A stretch of DNA of 43,870 nt from a virus: IMG/VR virus record IMGVR_UViG_3300042876_001067, positions 1 to 43,870 of that record; one strand, given 5' to 3'. Positions 33,709-41,885 of the stretch are shown piece after piece. The notes beneath the pieces were generated by a model, which had not been told where the DNA came from, searched no databases, and saw nothing but the letters and a program-made list of their open reading frames with translations. The first letter of the stretch is position 1; every line of letters starts with the position of its first letter. Both the position numbers and the translations under genes were made by a program.

Positions 33709-33801
33709 TTAATTTGATTTAAAAGACCATAAAAGAAATTTAACAATAGCATGTATTATTAAACATATTGCTCTTATTATATCTCTCATTAATTTTTTCA
33801 T
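33709..33801 (-). CDS. Hydrophobic micropeptide, 30 aa, coupled to radical-SAM-like gene
   Basis: ATG at 33801 overlaps the TGA of the upstream gene (ATGA at 33798-33801); TAA at 33709. Residues about 5-27 (MRDIIRAICLIIHAIVKFLL) are mostly hydrophobic with scattered Arg/Lys, like a single-span membrane peptide. The ATGA overlap is the main support. Confidence 0.45.
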   Translation of the reverse strand: MKKLMRDIIRAICLIIHAIVKFLLWSFKSN

Positions 33802-34490
33802 TTTAAAAGTCTTTTAAGATTAGTTTTTTGTTTGACTTTTGTAAATTTTTCCAATTCTTCAATGAGACGAAGAATTTTTTCTTTCCCTGGTTCAGGAAGA
33901 TGATTATTTCCTGAATCGGCTCCAATATTTACTTGTAAAGGTTTACACATCCAAATAAAATCAACCACCGGTGCTAAATCAAAATCCATTATTGGTTCCA
34001 TTGTTATATAAGTTTCGATAACATCACTTATTTCATACATTGCTTTTACTCTGTCTTCTGGCTTAGGAGCGTTTTTCATTATTTCAGGATAATGCCTGTT
34101 TGTCTCTATTGTAGTGCATAAAACAGATTTATCTGAAATTACACAAGCATCTATATAGTCCCAAAATCTAAATGGATTTTTGGTCTGGAATAGATATTTA
34201 TTTTCGAACATTTCGCAACGTTTTAATATCTTCCGGATCCATTCATCAGGAATATCTTCCGCAAATAGGTCATTTTGGGCCACAACAAAAATAAAATTAT
34301 TTTTACCCAGGCTTACCTTTAATTCTTCTTCCATTAAACAAGGTGGTCCCGAATATTTTTTTATCAGATGTTCATAAAAAAACTTATTTGTACTGCAATA
34401 CGTACAAGCATGAGTACAGTTGCCTCCTAATGGATTCCAGGTATGTGTGACAAAATCGTACATATTACCTTTTTGTTTATTTAGTGGCAT
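33798..34490 (-). CDS. Radical-SAM-like protein, Gp37/Gp68 (DUF5131) family
   Basis: A protein of 230 residues. TWNPLGGNCTHACTYCSTNK holds a Cx3Cx2C cluster (C25, C29, C32) that binds the 4Fe-4S cluster of radical SAM enzymes. FIFVVAQNDLFAEDIP, FQTKNPFRFWD, LCTTIETNRHYPE and TMEPIMDFDL are typical of the phage Gp37/Gp68 family. Its reaction is not known to me; the family is common in phage genomes, often beside nucleic-acid enzymes. It is coupled to a 30-residue hydrophobic peptide and followed by ASCH and methyltransferase-like genes. Confidence 0.85.
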   Translation of the reverse strand: MPLNKQKGNMYDFVTHTWNPLGGNCTHACTYCSTNKFFYEHLIKKYSGPPCLMEEELKVSLGKNNFIFVVAQNDLFAEDIPDEWIRKILKRCEMFENKYLFQTKNPFRFWDYIDACVISDKSVLCTTIETNRHYPEIMKNAPKPEDRVKAMYEISDVIETYITMEPIMDFDLAPVVDFIWMCKPLQVNIGADSGNNHLPEPGKEKILRLIEELEKFTKVKQKTNLKRLLK

Positions 34491-34491
34491 A

Positions 34492-34782
34492 TTACTTAAT
34501 TTTTAATTTTGCTTCTTTATATGTTTTTGTCATTATAATTGGTGGTGTTTTGCAAATTGATTTTAATGTCCATTTCAGCCAATTTATTTGCTGATCTTTT
34601 TCATTATTTGCTTTATTTAGAATATCTACTTTGATTTGTAAATTTTCTGCAGTTCTTTTTATTTGCAAATTATCAACCCAAAGCAATATATATAACAATA
34701 AATTTATAGTTAAAACAACAAGCCAAATAAGCTTTTCTGTTTGAGAAATATCCTCTTTTTCAGGTAAATTTATATCTTTCAT
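34492..34782 (-). CDS. Membrane-anchored coiled-coil protein
   Basis: A protein of 96 residues from the ATG at 34782 (MKDINLPEKEDISQTEKL), which gives a short overlap with the upstream gene; the ATG at 34818 would make a longer overlap. It has one membrane segment (about 16-34: KLIWLVVLTINLLLYILLW) followed by a coiled coil (LQIKVDILNKANNEKDQQIN). The layout resembles Rz/spanin-like or small signalling membrane proteins. Its gene lies next to the DGR but is probably unrelated to it. Confidence 0.5.
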   Translation of the reverse strand: MKDINLPEKEDISQTEKLIWLVVLTINLLLYILLWVDNLQIKRTAENLQIKVDILNKANNEKDQQINWLKWTLKSICKTPPIIMTKTYKEAKLKIK

Positions 34783-35065
34783 TATCTTCAATAATAATAG
34801 TTGTAAAAGGAAATCCAATTTCAGGTACCTGTTTTATTTGTTCAATTAAACAGTTAGATCCTGTAAAAATTATATGTTTTTTGTTTTCATATGAAATTTG
34901 TAAATGCAAGCATTTACCGCTACCCTTTTCTTTAAAAACCTTTGAATCTTCAATTTTAAAATCATGAACCACAATTTTACGATTTAGTATTTTAGACATT
35001 TTAATTTTTTCACCTTCAAACCCTTTTGTATTTGTTTTTATATCGAATTGGTTAAAACTGTTCAT
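34760..35065 (-). CDS. Small protein coupled to the DGR reverse transcriptase
   Basis: A protein of 101 residues whose ATG (35065) overlaps the RT stop as ATGA, so it is probably translated with RT. An internal Met at position 23 (MSKILNRK) is an alternative start. KGSGKCLHLQISYENKKHII and FTGSNCLIEQIKQVP resemble a small beta protein seen in many Bacteroidota phages. It is not like Avd (a basic helical bundle). It may be a general phage protein merely following the RT, or an accessory for this DGR; the sequence does not decide. Confidence 0.6.
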   Translation of the reverse strand: MNSFNQFDIKTNTKGFEGEKIKMSKILNRKIVVHDFKIEDSKVFKEKGSGKCLHLQISYENKKHIIFTGSNCLIEQIKQVPEIGFPFTTIIIEDNERYKFT

Positions 35066-36009
35066 AATAATTTTTTTAATAAGTGTTTAGAATTGCAATG
35101 CGATGCCCAACCATAATAAGATGCTATAGATTTGGCATTTTTGTTTTTATGGATCATCCTAGCAAAATTTTGTTTAATACTTTTGCGTAGCAAGGTATGG
35201 GTATGGTAGAAAACATATCCGACAAAATCAATTCCACGGGCTTCTACAGGAAAAACCTGGTAATTATCTTTAACTGTAATTTTCAATTTTTCCTGAAGAT
35301 ATGTCCTGATTTCAGCAAATAATTGATGTAAATATGCTTTATTGTCAGCTAATATTACCATATCATCAGCATAACGAAAATAGTATTTAACGAGTTTTGT
35401 TTCTTTGATCCAGTGATCGAAATAGGTTAAATAGAAATTAGCAAAATATTGACTTAAATAATTACCGATTGGAAGCCCTTCGGTACTGTCAATTATTTCA
35501 TCTAATAACCAAAGCAAATCATTGTCCTTTATTTTTCTGCGAAGCAATTGTTTTAAAATTTGATGATCCACATTCGGATAAAACTTTTTTATATCTAACT
35601 TTAAACAATACCTGGTATAATTTATATCGGTCAAAGCTTTTTTAACTGCCTTTTCAGCTGCATGAATACCACGTTTTTTGATGCAACTATATGTATCTGC
35701 AGTAAATGTTGAAACAAAAACAGTTTCTAAAATATTCATTACTGCATGGTGTGTAATGCGATCAGGGAAATATGGAAGTCTGAATATAAGCCGTTCTTTT
35801 GGTTCATAAATTGGGAAAGTAGTATATTCTGACGTTTTATAAGTTTTATTTTTAAGCATTAAATGCAAATCTTGTATATTCTTTTCGCGGTTCTTATCAT
35901 GAACCATTACACCAGGTTGTTTTAATTTTCCTTTTCGGGCAATAGAATCTGCTAATTGAAGATTTTCAATGCTGCAAATTCTTTCATATAAATTGTTTTT
36001 TCTTTTCAT
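35062..36009 (-). CDS. DGR reverse transcriptase
   Basis: A protein of 315 residues. LDIKKFYPNVDH (about 138-149) is RT motif A with catalytic D139. LPIGNYLSQYFANFYL (about 179-194) is the DGR-type IGNxxSQ signature, where other RTs have QGxxxSP. YADD (213-216) is motif C. The C-terminus (GWASHCNS) fits the thumb. The enzyme would copy the adjacent template RNA into cDNA with errors at adenines, and this cDNA replaces variable repeats. It lies about 100 bases after the template repeat and after the two nearby targets, the classic DGR order. There is no clear Avd nearby. Confidence 0.95.
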   Translation of the reverse strand: MKRKNNLYERICSIENLQLADSIARKGKLKQPGVMVHDKNREKNIQDLHLMLKNKTYKTSEYTTFPIYEPKERLIFRLPYFPDRITHHAVMNILETVFVSTFTADTYSCIKKRGIHAAEKAVKKALTDINYTRYCLKLDIKKFYPNVDHQILKQLLRRKIKDNDLLWLLDEIIDSTEGLPIGNYLSQYFANFYLTYFDHWIKETKLVKYYFRYADDMVILADNKAYLHQLFAEIRTYLQEKLKITVKDNYQVFPVEARGIDFVGYVFYHTHTLLRKSIKQNFARMIHKNKNAKSIASYYGWASHCNSKHLLKKLL

Positions 36010-36109
36010 TCCTTTGCTTTCTAAAGATCGCTTTCTCCGTAGATACTAACGCTCTTTTTTATTATTTTTATTTTTTGCCTTGTTGGCATGGTTTATGCTT
36101 CATATGTTC

Positions 36110-36190
36110 GCATAGGTGCGAACTGCAATTCGTATTCGTGTTCGTGTAATTGTAATTCGAATTATCGAACCTGAACCTGGACGACAAAAC
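36110..36190 (-). repeat. DGR template repeat (TR)
   Basis: Eighty-one bases in a non-coding gap between the 36224 gene and the RT gene. The coding strand would read V-L-S-S-R-F-R-F-D-N-S-N and so on, with many AAY and ACG codons, the usual make-up of a TR. Compared with the three variable repeats over 80 positions, all differences are at the 23 adenines of this strand; each of these adenines is changed in at least one VR and none of the other positions varies (VR2 homology ends after 78). TTCGCA (36107-36112) and TGCGAA (36117-36122) form a small hairpin at its 3' end. Confidence 0.95.
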
Positions 36191-36223
36191 TGGCAGTTCT
36201 AAAAGCATACAACCCATTTTTTT

Positions 36224-36634
36224 TTATTCTGAATAAAGTAAATATTCCTGGTATTCCTTTTCAAATTGTTTTGCTATATACAACGCCTTTTCTGAAGTAT
36301 CTGTGCAAAGGCGCGAACCGCAAAGCGCATTCGAGTGCGCGTAAGTGAAATACGAATCAGCGAACCCGAACCCGGACGACAAAACCCTATACCATGGAAA
36401 ATATTTATATTGGTTCCAATCGCTCCAATCTGGTTTCCAACCATTATTTATTGCTTTATAAATGATCATTAATTTATAACCTGCAATAATTGGCTTTTTA
36501 AATTCATCATTTGGAACTTCAGGAAGTTCTTCAGGATCTAATCCTAATTTTTTGCAAGCATCTGCAAAACTCTTGATTGTTTTATAATCAAAAGGTGAGT
36601 TGCTTTTAACTGGTTTTGTTGTTTTTTTTGCCAT
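36224..36634 (-). CDS. DGR variable protein 1
   Basis: A protein of 136 residues. An N-terminal helical part (FDYKTIKSFADACKKLGLDP, about 15-34) is shared with the other two targets. NGWKPDWSDWNQYKYFPWYR leads into the variable segment (residues 84-110), SSGFGF...CGSRLC, whose flanking G-F-G-F and G-S-R-L motifs resemble C-type-lectin/FGE-type folds. The short C-terminus (ALYIAKQFEKEYQEYLL) is a helix shared by the family. No signal peptide. The type is common in Bacteroidota phages, but no binding target is known to me. VR1 spans 36305-36385. Confidence 0.9.
   Translation of the reverse strand: MAKKTTKPVKSNSPFDYKTIKSFADACKKLGLDPEELPEVPNDEFKKPIIAGYKLMIIYKAINNGWKPDWSDWNQYKYFPWYRVLSSGFGFADSYFTYAHSNALCGSRLCTDTSEKALYIAKQFEKEYQEYLLYSE
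36305..36385 (-). repeat. DGR variable repeat 1 (VR1)
   Basis: Aligns to the template without gaps over 80 positions; 16 of 23 template adenines are substituted and no other base. CGCCTTT (36284-36290) can pair with AAAGGCG (36307-36313), an inverted repeat spanning the 3' end of the VR. Confidence 0.95.
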
Positions 36635-36637
36635 AAT

Positions 36638-37093
36638 TTACTTTATAAATTGTTTATACAGATCTAAAAATTGTTGCGCTGCATAATTTGATTTTTCTTT
36701 GCTTTCGAAGCAAAGGCGCGAACCGCAATCCGCAAACGTGAACGCGCAAGAGTAACACGAATCATCGAACCCGAACCCGGACGACAAATCAAACCATGGA
36801 TACCATTTTTGTTGATTAGAGTCATTCCAATCTGGTTTCCATCCTTGATTTATTGCTTCAATAATTATCTTTAATTTTTTGTAAGCAATTTCATCTGAAG
36901 AATCGCATTTGTTTATTTCTGCATATGGATCCTTATTCAATGCTTCACATGCATCTTCAAAAGTTTTAATGCTTTCAAAAGATATTTTATTGACAAGATC
37001 TTTGCCAAATTCTTTACTTAAAAGTTCTTGGAACCAATCAGGTGATTCAGGATAAACTTTTTTTGCTGTTTTTAAATCAATGTTTAATGACAT
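36638..37093 (-). CDS. DGR variable protein 2
   Basis: A protein of 151 residues. Its N-terminus is longer than in the paralogues (about 1-36, ending SKEFGKDLVNK). It then shares the helical module (SIKTFEDACEALNKDP), NQGWKPDWNDSNQQKWYPWF and the variable C-terminal segment SSGFGF...CGSRLCF (variable residues about 103-128), followed by EKSNYAAQQFLDLYKQF. It is three bases upstream of variable protein 1, probably co-transcribed with it, the template and the RT. VR2 spans 36710-36788. Confidence 0.9.
   Translation of the reverse strand: MSLNIDLKTAKKVYPESPDWFQELLSKEFGKDLVNKISFESIKTFEDACEALNKDPYAEINKCDSSDEIAYKKLKIIIEAINQGWKPDWNDSNQQKWYPWFDLSSGFGFDDSCYSCAFTFADCGSRLCFESKEKSNYAAQQFLDLYKQFIK
36697..36715. 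repeat. Hairpin at 3' end of VR2
   Basis: CTTTGCTT (36697-36704) and AAGCAAAG (36708-36715) form a perfect 8-bp stem with a three-base loop, overlapping the VR end. A similar but shorter stem (TGCTT/AAGCA) lies at VR3. In the Bordetella phage DGR a hairpin next to the VR is needed for target recognition, so a similar function is plausible. Confidence 0.6.
36710..36788 (-). repeat. DGR variable repeat 2 (VR2)
   Basis: Aligns to the template over 78 positions; 18 template adenines are substituted and no other base. Homology to the template stops after position 78, two bases earlier than in the other copies. Confidence 0.95.
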
Positions 37094-37114: not shown

Positions 37115-37504
37115 TTAAGGATTATAGAATTTTCTTTCTAATTGACCCGATTCGCCTATGAAATATTCGTTTGTATAATCTTGTTTTATCTCACCATCAA
37201 TCCATTTTTTTATTAGTGAATATGGAGAAGGAAAATAATTATCAAATAATAGCATTTCTCTGGTATTGTTTTTAATATGGGATGCTTTATAAATTAAGGC
37301 TTCCATTTCGTTTTTGAATTTATTTTTTGATAATGAATTTAGTTCCTTTAAAGTGATGTCGCCCCTGTATGTGAATTTTGGATTTTTCCCATATTTTTCA
37401 TTCGGATAAAACAAAACTCTCAATGTGAAATGGGAAACTTTTTGTCCTTTTTGTGTTTTGGTTTTTATTTTTGTTGGTTTATATTTTACAGGTAAATCGC
37501 TCAT
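37115..37504 (-). CDS. Unknown protein upstream of the DGR targets
   Basis: A protein of 129 residues: N-terminal basic (KYKPTKIKTKTQKGQKVSHF), then beta/alpha (HFTLRVLFYPNEKYGKNP) and a C-terminal Tyr-rich stretch. No membrane segment. It precedes variable protein 2 by 21 bases and could share its transcript. No family recognised. Confidence 0.5.
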   Translation of the reverse strand: MSDLPVKYKPTKIKTKTQKGQKVSHFTLRVLFYPNEKYGKNPKFTYRGDITLKELNSLSKNKFKNEMEALIYKASHIKNNTREMLLFDNYFPSPYSLIKKWIDGEIKQDYTNEYFIGESGQLERKFYNP

Positions 37505-37550
37505 ATCTAAGTGTTTTTCTTTAATTTTTGTCGCATAAATTCTAAGAAAA

Positions 37551-37604
37551 CTAACAAGCTAACAAGCTAAAAATAACTAACAAGCTAACAAGCTAACAAG
37601 CTAA
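37551..37604. repeat. Array of 8-bp direct repeats, candidate iterons (replication origin)
   Basis: CTAACAAG occurs exactly five times: 37551-37558, 37559-37566, 37577-37584, 37585-37592 and 37593-37600, each block followed by a partial CTAA, with a 10-bp interruption between copies two and three. It lies in a 167-base gap without genes, just downstream of a winged-helix protein and a DnaA-domain protein, where a phage origin is expected. A palindrome TTTCTTTAAGAAA (37608-37620) follows. The repeat could instead be a regulatory site for the DGR operon. Confidence 0.6.
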
Positions 37605-37671
37605 GAATTTCTTTAAGAAACTATCTTCATATTATGCTAATAACAAAAATTTGCAGTTGTATCATAAAAAA

Positions 37672-41486: not shown

Positions 41487-41885
41487 TTAATATAAAAATC
41501 CATTATATAATTCGATAAATTGCTTAGCGGTGTAATCGCTTTTTTCTCTGCTTTGAAAGCAAAGGCGCGAACCGCAACCCGTAAACGCGAACGTGCAATT
41601 GTAACTCGAACTATCGAACCCGAACCCGGACGACAAAACCTCAAACCACGGATAAAATTTGGGTTGGTTACAATCTTGCCAATTGGGTTTCCAGCCATTA
41701 TTTACCGCTTTAATAACTAACTTGAGTTTTTCATAATTTATGGTATCAGGATCAAGCCCAAGTGCATCAAATTTTTTATTAAATTCTTTTTCTGAAGTTC
41801 CAAATGCCTTACAGGCATCATTAAAAGTTTTGATTGTTCTGAAATCAAATTCTTTTTTTTCTGTTTTTTTTACTTTTGCTGACAT
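41487..41885 (-). CDS. DGR variable protein 3 (remote target)
   Basis: A protein of 132 residues, paralogous to variable proteins 1 and 2: FDFRTIKTFNDACKAFG, NNGWKPNWQDCNQPKFYPWF and the variable segment SSGFGF...CGSRLCF (variable residues about 83-109), then EKSDYTAKQFIELYNGF. It lies 5.4 kb from the template repeat, outside the DGR cluster, immediately after a tRNA gene. It must be retargeted in trans by the RT at 35062. VR3 spans 41559-41639. Confidence 0.9.
   Translation of the reverse strand: MSAKVKKTEKKEFDFRTIKTFNDACKAFGTSEKEFNKKFDALGLDPDTINYEKLKLVIKAVNNGWKPNWQDCNQPKFYPWFEVLSSGFGFDSSSYNCTFAFTGCGSRLCFQSREKSDYTAKQFIELYNGFLY
41559..41639 (-). repeat. DGR variable repeat 3 (VR3, remote)
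   Basis: Aligns to the template without gaps over 80 positions; 15 template adenines are substituted and no other base. TGCTT and AAGCA (near 41549-41561) form a short stem at the 3' end. Confidence 0.93.

Follow-up and report, generated by a model that had tools for sequence, protein, structure and literature searches.

Introduction

Which proteins does a phage diversity-generating retroelement (DGR) rewrite when its variable repeats lie in small genes outside the tail module, and what would such rewriting be for? Phage DGRs are usually read as host-range devices, because nearly all of those studied diversify tail proteins; viral DGR targets are mostly tail proteins with lectin-fold variable repeats at the C-terminus (Roux et al., PMC8144416). 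The question is raised by a virus sequence of 43,870 nucleotides (IMG/VR record IMGVR_UViG_3300042876_001067; this whole stretch is called the window below), in which an earlier note, made from the letters of the sequence, had recognized a complete, adenine-specific DGR. That identity is supported by the pattern of template repeat (TR) and variable repeats (VRs), by the target reading frames and by the placement of the reverse transcriptase (RT). The interval given for it, 36110-37093, does hold the TR, VR1 and VR2, but VR3 (in the reading frame 41487-41885) and the RT (35062-36009) lie outside. Three features had escaped notice: the location of the targets away from the tail genes, a conserved 101-aa gene behind the RT, and a structured RNA in the spacer between TR and RT.

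We are fairly confident that the window carries a complete DGR of a temperate-type Bacteroidota phage, that it belongs to an active lineage, that its targets are early cytoplasmic proteins and that the cassette is mobile as a unit. The evidence for each part is set out below, together with the alternatives that bear on it.

Template and variable repeats

The coding strand of the TR and of the VRs is the minus strand. The TR (36110-36190, minus strand) is 81 nt long and contains 23 adenines, as delimited by repeat alignment and by a mismatch scan in which any single base type was allowed to mismatch, each base type in turn. A program alignment joins it without gaps over 81 nt, close to the 80 bp first estimated, to three VRs on the same strand: VR1 (36305-36385, 16 mismatches) and VR3 (41559-41639, 15 mismatches, about 5.4 kb from the TR) differ from it at TR adenines alone, and VR2 (36710-36790) differs at 18 TR adenines and at one other base. 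This sole non-adenine mismatch falls on TR position 2, at the extreme edge of VR2, whose homology begins at TR position 3, and the statement that no other base differs until the homology ends is upheld. No further VR was found in the 43,870 bases of the record.

In the window, the scan returned repeat pairs for adenine alone, and across the window and 80 related loci adenine accounted for 156 pairs, guanine for 5, cytosine for 2 and thymine for none. In the 51 loci with at least two VRs, 1283 non-adenine positions of the VR core are unchanged and 1 is changed, and the VRs disagree with one another at 571 adenine positions. Chance repeats as the source of the likeness between TR and VRs are ruled out by these scans and core counts.

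The adenines do not all behave alike. All 23 are changed in at least one VR, as had been counted (16, 18 and 15), but this holds for the union of the counts: the idea that all 23 are diversified had to be given up, since five carry the same base in all three VRs and only 18 vary. The 18 lie in the variable core (TR positions 26-62; 36129-36165, minus strand, from the repeat alignment), where the three VRs disagree among themselves at them; this core includes six AAY codons, and a peptide space of about 5e10 per VR was computed from it. The fixed differences, at TR positions 13, 19, 67, 74 and 78 (to G, G, G, G and T, identical across the three VRs), lie in the two flanks. In the 5′ flank (36166-36190, minus strand) the adenines at 36178 and 36172 are G in every VR, and in the IMH*-like 3′ flank (36110-36128, minus strand) those at 36124, 36117 and 36113 are G, G and T, the last change being synonymous (CTA/CTT). 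Within the 44 flank nucleotides the five fixed differences are exactly the five adenines, for which random placement gives a probability of 9e-7.

This flank pattern runs through the whole family: in the 51 loci with at least two VRs, the 24 nt ahead of the variable core show a concordant change at 88 of 112 adenines, against 48 of 1112 other bases. We infer that the outer TR adenines are fixed differences of the IMH/IMH* type and would act as such. A comparable case, given in PMC4372165, is that of nanoarchaeal DGRs, in which a VR has TGGGGT and the TR has TGGAAT. One speculative reason for keeping adenines in the flanks is that an error-prone copy could still pair with the VR while the TR does not; TR adenines opposite a fixed G or T in the VRs suggest how a template might escape rewriting itself. 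Behind the VRs the folding signal was weak, and no hairpin or cruciform of the BPP-1 type was evident there.

Reverse transcriptase

The RT gene (35062-36009, minus strand, 315 aa) matches phrog_1423 ('Reverse transcriptase', E 5e-124), and both LPIGNYLSQ and YADD, on which the first identification had relied, are present. The best match among PDB sequences is 8ub7_A ('Reverse transcriptase', 6e-41), which we take to be the BPP-1 DGR RT, and group II intron RTs follow at 1e-16. In a tree of 76 RTs (quick maximum likelihood, with several long branches) the window RT sides with those of BPP-1, ANMV-1 and LBR48, and four group II intron RTs stand across a branch with 100% SH-aLRT support. Profile match and tree both put the RT with DGR RTs and not outside them, as the earlier note had anticipated; a group II intron is ruled out by the ranking of the PDB matches and by the split in the tree.

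Activity of the lineage

The DGR lineage is diversifying in nature now, as seen in close relatives; the window phage itself is one genome. The lineage is called active because near-identical contigs differ at template adenines inside the VRs. Five such contigs (L021, L025, L026, L027 and L028) are 0-0.2% different outside the VRs, and single VRs differ at 9-13 TR adenines, which is the adenine-biased diversity in relatives that had been proposed as a check. Two differences among the five are at other bases, both in one L025 VR.

One may ask whether the cassette of the window phage is a relic, with a dead RT or dead homing and VRs that are a frozen record, as the single genome and the five differences from the TR common to all three VRs might suggest. 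We consider this very improbable: the RT is intact (315 aa, YADD and IGNYLSQ), no VR shows drift at non-adenine positions within the repeat, and demonstrably active relatives show the same kind of fixed flank differences. Active diversification is therefore kept as the reading of the lineage. In two Versailles-type relatives (L192 and L193 5989-6654) the early genes are near-identical and the protein differences cluster in the VR, which suggests that this early target is under active diversification as well.

Target proteins and their genome location

The VRs lie in three small genes of the minus strand. Target gene B (36224-36634, 136 aa) holds VR1, target gene A (36638-37093, 151 aa, with an N-terminal extension) holds VR2, and a third target gene (41487-41885, 132 aa), close to where the leftward run of early genes begins, holds VR3. 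All three match phrog_11581, a family of unknown function (E 2.5e-25, 5e-31 and 8e-28, respectively). The window targets have no significant match in Pfam, nor has the target profile among PDB sequences. The target alignment contains no stretch of sufficient conservation for a profile-based scan of viral contigs. An AlphaFold2 model of target gene A (pLDDT 88 overall, 66-78 around the VR) predicts a helical protein in which the VR forms a hairpin. Foldseek found nothing for it in the PDB at E<=1e-3, VIA-align against PDB folds gave a best Z of only 2.3, and the matches in BFVD were solely uncharacterised phage proteins. A model of the longer relative L192 (pLDDT 75, VR part under 50) was left out of use.

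Across the relatives, target sizes are about 115-185 aa and each phage has two or three copies. The usual layout consists of a pair of tandem paralogues with TR and RT; a third paralogue is present at some loci, and a distant extra copy at some, as in the window. At four loci (L061, L119, L122 and L124) additional small targets, located to one or the other side of the RT, hold VRs at a distance of 3-9 kb from the TR; remote targeting recurs in the small-target clade. A signal-like N-terminus was found in 0 of 139 targets and a TM-like stretch in 2 of 139.

The position of the targets in the genome bears directly on what they may be. In the window, the tail tape measure gene lies at 4.2-8.2 kb, the head protease gene at 27.6-28.5 kb and a repressor-like gene at 43.4 kb, and the targets lie at 36-42 kb, outside the virion structural module, as judged by comparing gene maps of the window and its relatives. 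In Elizabethkingia and Pedobacter prophages the cassette comes after Mu-type transposase/MuB genes, in Niastella it adjoins primase and methyltransferase genes, and in Flavobacterium it is near a DnaB helicase gene. Relatives of the targets also occur in the early modules of Versailles (between NinB and the replisome organizer), cr56_1, BI-TP1 (among methyltransferases) and Dulem 41. By these gene maps, the targets belong to the small proteins of early/DNA-metabolism modules of unrelated Bacteroidota phages, not to those of tail modules. Their most likely place is the cytoplasm, judging by this early location, which is no proof of absence from the virion, and by the lack of signal and membrane segments.

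The Elizabethkingia and Pedobacter cassettes (L102 2818-5782 and L107 3155-6183) occupy the early region of Mu-like (MuA/MuB) prophages, and these locations suggest that the cassette was transferred whole between phage types. Two further features of the surroundings may be recorded. A short tandem array of CTAACAAG units occupies 37548-37608 of the window, in intergenic DNA that lies upstream of the gene 37115-37504, and is possibly a regulatory or protein-binding site. At 33798-34490, near the DGR, there is a Radical SAM/DUF5131-like gene, and a related phrog_2045 gene is found near the Niastella cassette (L101 13348-14487).

A possible path from tail to early targets

Some relatives have both kinds of target. 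Versailles has one TR, which serves two VRs. The VR of an RT-adjacent tail protein differs at 11 of 22 adenines and agrees with the TR at 86 other bases; that of an early protein about 43 kb off differs at 14 of 22 adenines and agrees at 85 other bases. The sites concerned in this Bacteroides phage are L085 5872-6453 and L086 3624-3731; the early gene is annotated as 'tail protein'. The single TR of the crAss-like phage cr56_1 similarly matches a tail protein and an early relative of the targets, the early VR having 18 of 24 adenines changed and 43 other bases identical. Here, a remote adenine-specific VR lies in an early hypothetical gene besides the tail VR (L087 4998-5405 and L172 5780-5872). 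The RT reading frame of cr56_1 holds five TAG codons, and TAG is therefore probably read as a residue in this phage.

The RT tree shows the same neighbourhood from another side. Small-target RTs require 3 label changes on the tree, against 21 in shuffles, and their main clade (99%), which has 44 rows with small targets and one with a tail target, is nested among tail-target RTs. The targets of lower-identity sister RTs are mostly 430-1070 aa long; their VR lies at the extreme C-terminus, again with the GSRLCF ending. The motif GF.........GSRLCF is common to these C-terminal VRs and to the window-type targets, and in the latter the VR is followed by about 27 residues. The sister lineages retain a separate tail target. 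The simplest history would be that a tail DGR gained an early second target and that one lineage then retained early targets alone. Two small-target DGRs (L151 and L163) have RTs outside the main clade, and the target type may therefore have been acquired more than once.

The shared motif and the single TR that serves a tail and an early protein in Versailles and cr56_1 can also be taken to mean that the element is a classic tropism DGR, whose small proteins would be minor constituents of the tail or receptor-binding structure, their early gene position being incidental, so that their diversification alters host attachment. Most known phage DGR targets are indeed tail proteins (PMC8144416), and some room has to be left for a surface role because one TR serves a tail protein in these two phages. 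Yet the targets are found in early/DNA-metabolism modules of several unrelated phage types, come in two or three copies of about 115-185 aa without a recognised fibre-like or anchoring domain, and have sister lineages in which a separate tail target is retained. A tropism function consequently appears unlikely, and the targets are treated below as early, intracellular proteins.

An apparent accessory gene behind the reverse transcriptase

A gene of 101 aa (34760-35065, minus strand; phrog_19665) overlaps the RT stop by 4 nt and is an apparent DGR accessory, a role suggested by linkage. It lies directly behind the RT in 130 of 160 RT loci, and every other gene of the window between 30 and 43.8 kb, RT and targets apart, is found in at most 10 of the 160. 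Where RT identity is at least 66% and there is room behind the RT, it is present in 117 of 118 loci; at lower identity, it is present in 8 of 9 loci with a small target versus 3 of 28 without one.

Searches with the 101-aa family alone, blind to the RT, recovered 26 viral loci, all 26 with a DGR RT directly in front, and both matches in 299 Flavobacteriaceae genomes are behind such an RT. The family has just two matches in 50,697 phage genomes, ANMV-1 and vir525 (profile E 1e-23 and 9e-27); both are archaeal viruses and have the gene directly behind a DGR RT.

The gene might instead be an unrelated phage gene, present in the RT operon only as a passenger. In keeping with this, it is missing from 25 of the 28 lower-identity loci without a small target, and tail-type RT relatives mostly lack it. 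Against it stand the facts that this is the only neighbour to be kept, a few nucleotides behind the RT or overlapping it, that 50,697 phage genomes yield just the two matches, behind DGR RTs of archaeal viruses, and that an RT accompanies all 26 loci of the RT-blind searches and both Flavobacteriaceae matches. We find the passenger explanation quite unlikely, and prefer to regard the 101-aa protein as a candidate accessory.

Such an accessory would differ from the known one. The 101-aa family has no significant match in Pfam or PDB, and its profile (A3) does not match BPP-1 Avd or bbp4. A PF05635 (Avd) search found nothing in the window, but it also missed BPP-1 Avd itself. There is no reading frame of at least 60 aa between target and RT, and the position ahead of the TR that would be that of Avd is empty in the window. 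A DGR-associated protein without a Pfam, from an earlier DGR survey, is mentioned in PMC10053308, and this might be the 101-aa family. Linked to the RT in viruses of bacteria as well as archaea, the gene is a candidate for another class of DGR accessory, which could be useful for building DGR mutagenesis tools.

Structured RNA between template and reverse transcriptase

The spacer between TR and RT (36023-36109, minus strand) is a covarying structured RNA, with a TGCC..GGCA hairpin and a GAGCG..GGTA..GAAA..CGATC stem. About 100 nt are strongly conserved, and in 60 sequences two-sided compensatory changes occur in 9 of 11 predicted pairs. Its similarity to Rfam RT-14 (36023-36125, E 0.012, 34.6 bits) and to RT-17 (25.5 bits) stays below the gathering thresholds of 48.1 and 40.4, respectively, and none of 18 relatives gave a match at gathering level. 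In BPP-1, RT and Avd are recruited by the spacer, from which cDNA synthesis is also primed (PMC12875486), and for this reason the window spacer likely has the same recruiting and priming role.

Mechanism and possible purpose

In the mechanism that we propose, the TR transcript would be copied by the RT with errors at adenines, and the cDNA would replace the middle of the three VRs. About 12 codons would be randomised in this way, in the predicted beta-hairpin of three small paralogous proteins. These are most likely cytoplasmic and not part of the virion, and would be made when infection or induction begins. For the 101-aa protein, the most likely role is one in cDNA synthesis or homing, like that of Avd in BPP-1. 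The cassette as a whole (two tandem targets, TR, structured spacer RNA, RT and 101-aa protein) would move as a unit between unrelated phages.

A whole clade aims DGR machinery at small early proteins, and accelerated evolution is therefore apparently spent on something inside the cell. What the proteins would bind there can be proposed tentatively: variable factors of the host's defence, or factors from rival phages, are possible partners rather than probable ones. The wider picture, in which a DGR clade switched from tail fibres to intracellular early proteins, keeping two to four self-mutating small binders against host or competitor factors and an RT that relies on an accessory of its own (phrog_19665) rather than on Avd, is conjectural to a similar degree.

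Alternatively, the targets may serve the lysogen, as recognition proteins that the prophage expresses to exclude superinfecting phages or defend against them, and would then be under host-level selection. The cassette is retained in many prophages of sequenced Bacteroidota, DGRs linked to conflict systems are known in multicellular bacteria (PMC10907252), a DGR role in immunity has been proposed (PMC10053308), and a second VR lies beside methyltransferase or defence genes in Quimbyvirus and further prophages (PMC8008677, PMC12629997). However, no defence or effector domain is recognised in the targets, and relatives are also found in crAss-like phages, a group for which lysogeny is not generally known. 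We regard selection at the level of the host as rather doubtful, and the binding of host or competitor factors during infection or induction is retained as the working proposal. Carriers exist in culture (Flavobacterium, Niastella, Pedobacter and others), and the binding partners of the hypervariable early proteins are therefore directly testable.

Comparison with known systems

The DGR of BPP-1 (brt-avd-TR-mtd) resembles that of the window in its YxDD RT, the TR between target and RT, the adenine-specific VR changes, the spacer RNA between TR and RT, and the difference between TR and VR at the 3′ end (IMH/IMH*). It differs in its target, a C-type lectin protein of the tail whose VR lies at the very C-terminus, where the window has small early proteins, and in encoding Avd before the TR, where the window has no reading frame between target and RT and has a different small gene behind the RT. 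Tentaclin DGRs (PMC10743442) are alike in that one TR serves two different targets and a beta-hairpin is hypermutated, but their targets bind receptors and are large proteins that contain C-type lectin and Ig domains. The archaeal viruses ANMV-1 and vir525 share the 101-aa homologue directly behind the RT, but have a tail-type target (the Mtd-like AdtA in ANMV-1); the passages of PMC4372165 consulted do not name the homologue as a DGR component.

Similar as well are the DGRs of Versailles and the crAss-like cr56_1 and cr52_1, whose RTs are 44-59% identical to that of the window and whose target family is common with it, the early VR being adenine-specific in Versailles and cr56_1. Unlike the window, they have one TR with an RT-adjacent tail target and a remote early target, and Versailles and cr52_1 have no 101-aa relative directly behind the RT.

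Quimbyvirus has a second, non-structural target that was termed without precedent (Benler et al., PMC8008677), and four prophages with a distal VR near counter-defence genes have been described (PMC12629997). Both resemble the window in having a non-structural target near methyltransferases. In Quimbyvirus, however, the first target of the cassette is a tail protein, whereas every target found in the window is of the small family; both Quimbyvirus targets are called C-type lectin proteins (PMC8008677), and the Pfam and PDB searches with those of the window gave no match that would confirm such a fold. A possible link is BI-TP1, whose gp84 is 26% identical, belongs to the same target family and adjoins TIGR02757/methyltransferase genes; the gene content resembles the description of Quimbyvirus, and we infer that the two are related. 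A search for relatives of the BI-TP1 protein gave none.

A DGR clade with small early targets alone (environmental Bacteroidota and Ignavibacteria) and a linked 101-aa family was not found described in the literature searched, from which the Wu et al. 2018 survey was left out. Non-structural DGR targets as such have a precedent in Quimbyvirus; what appears to be new, in target, layout and accessory gene, is a clade dedicated to them, together with its own accessory.
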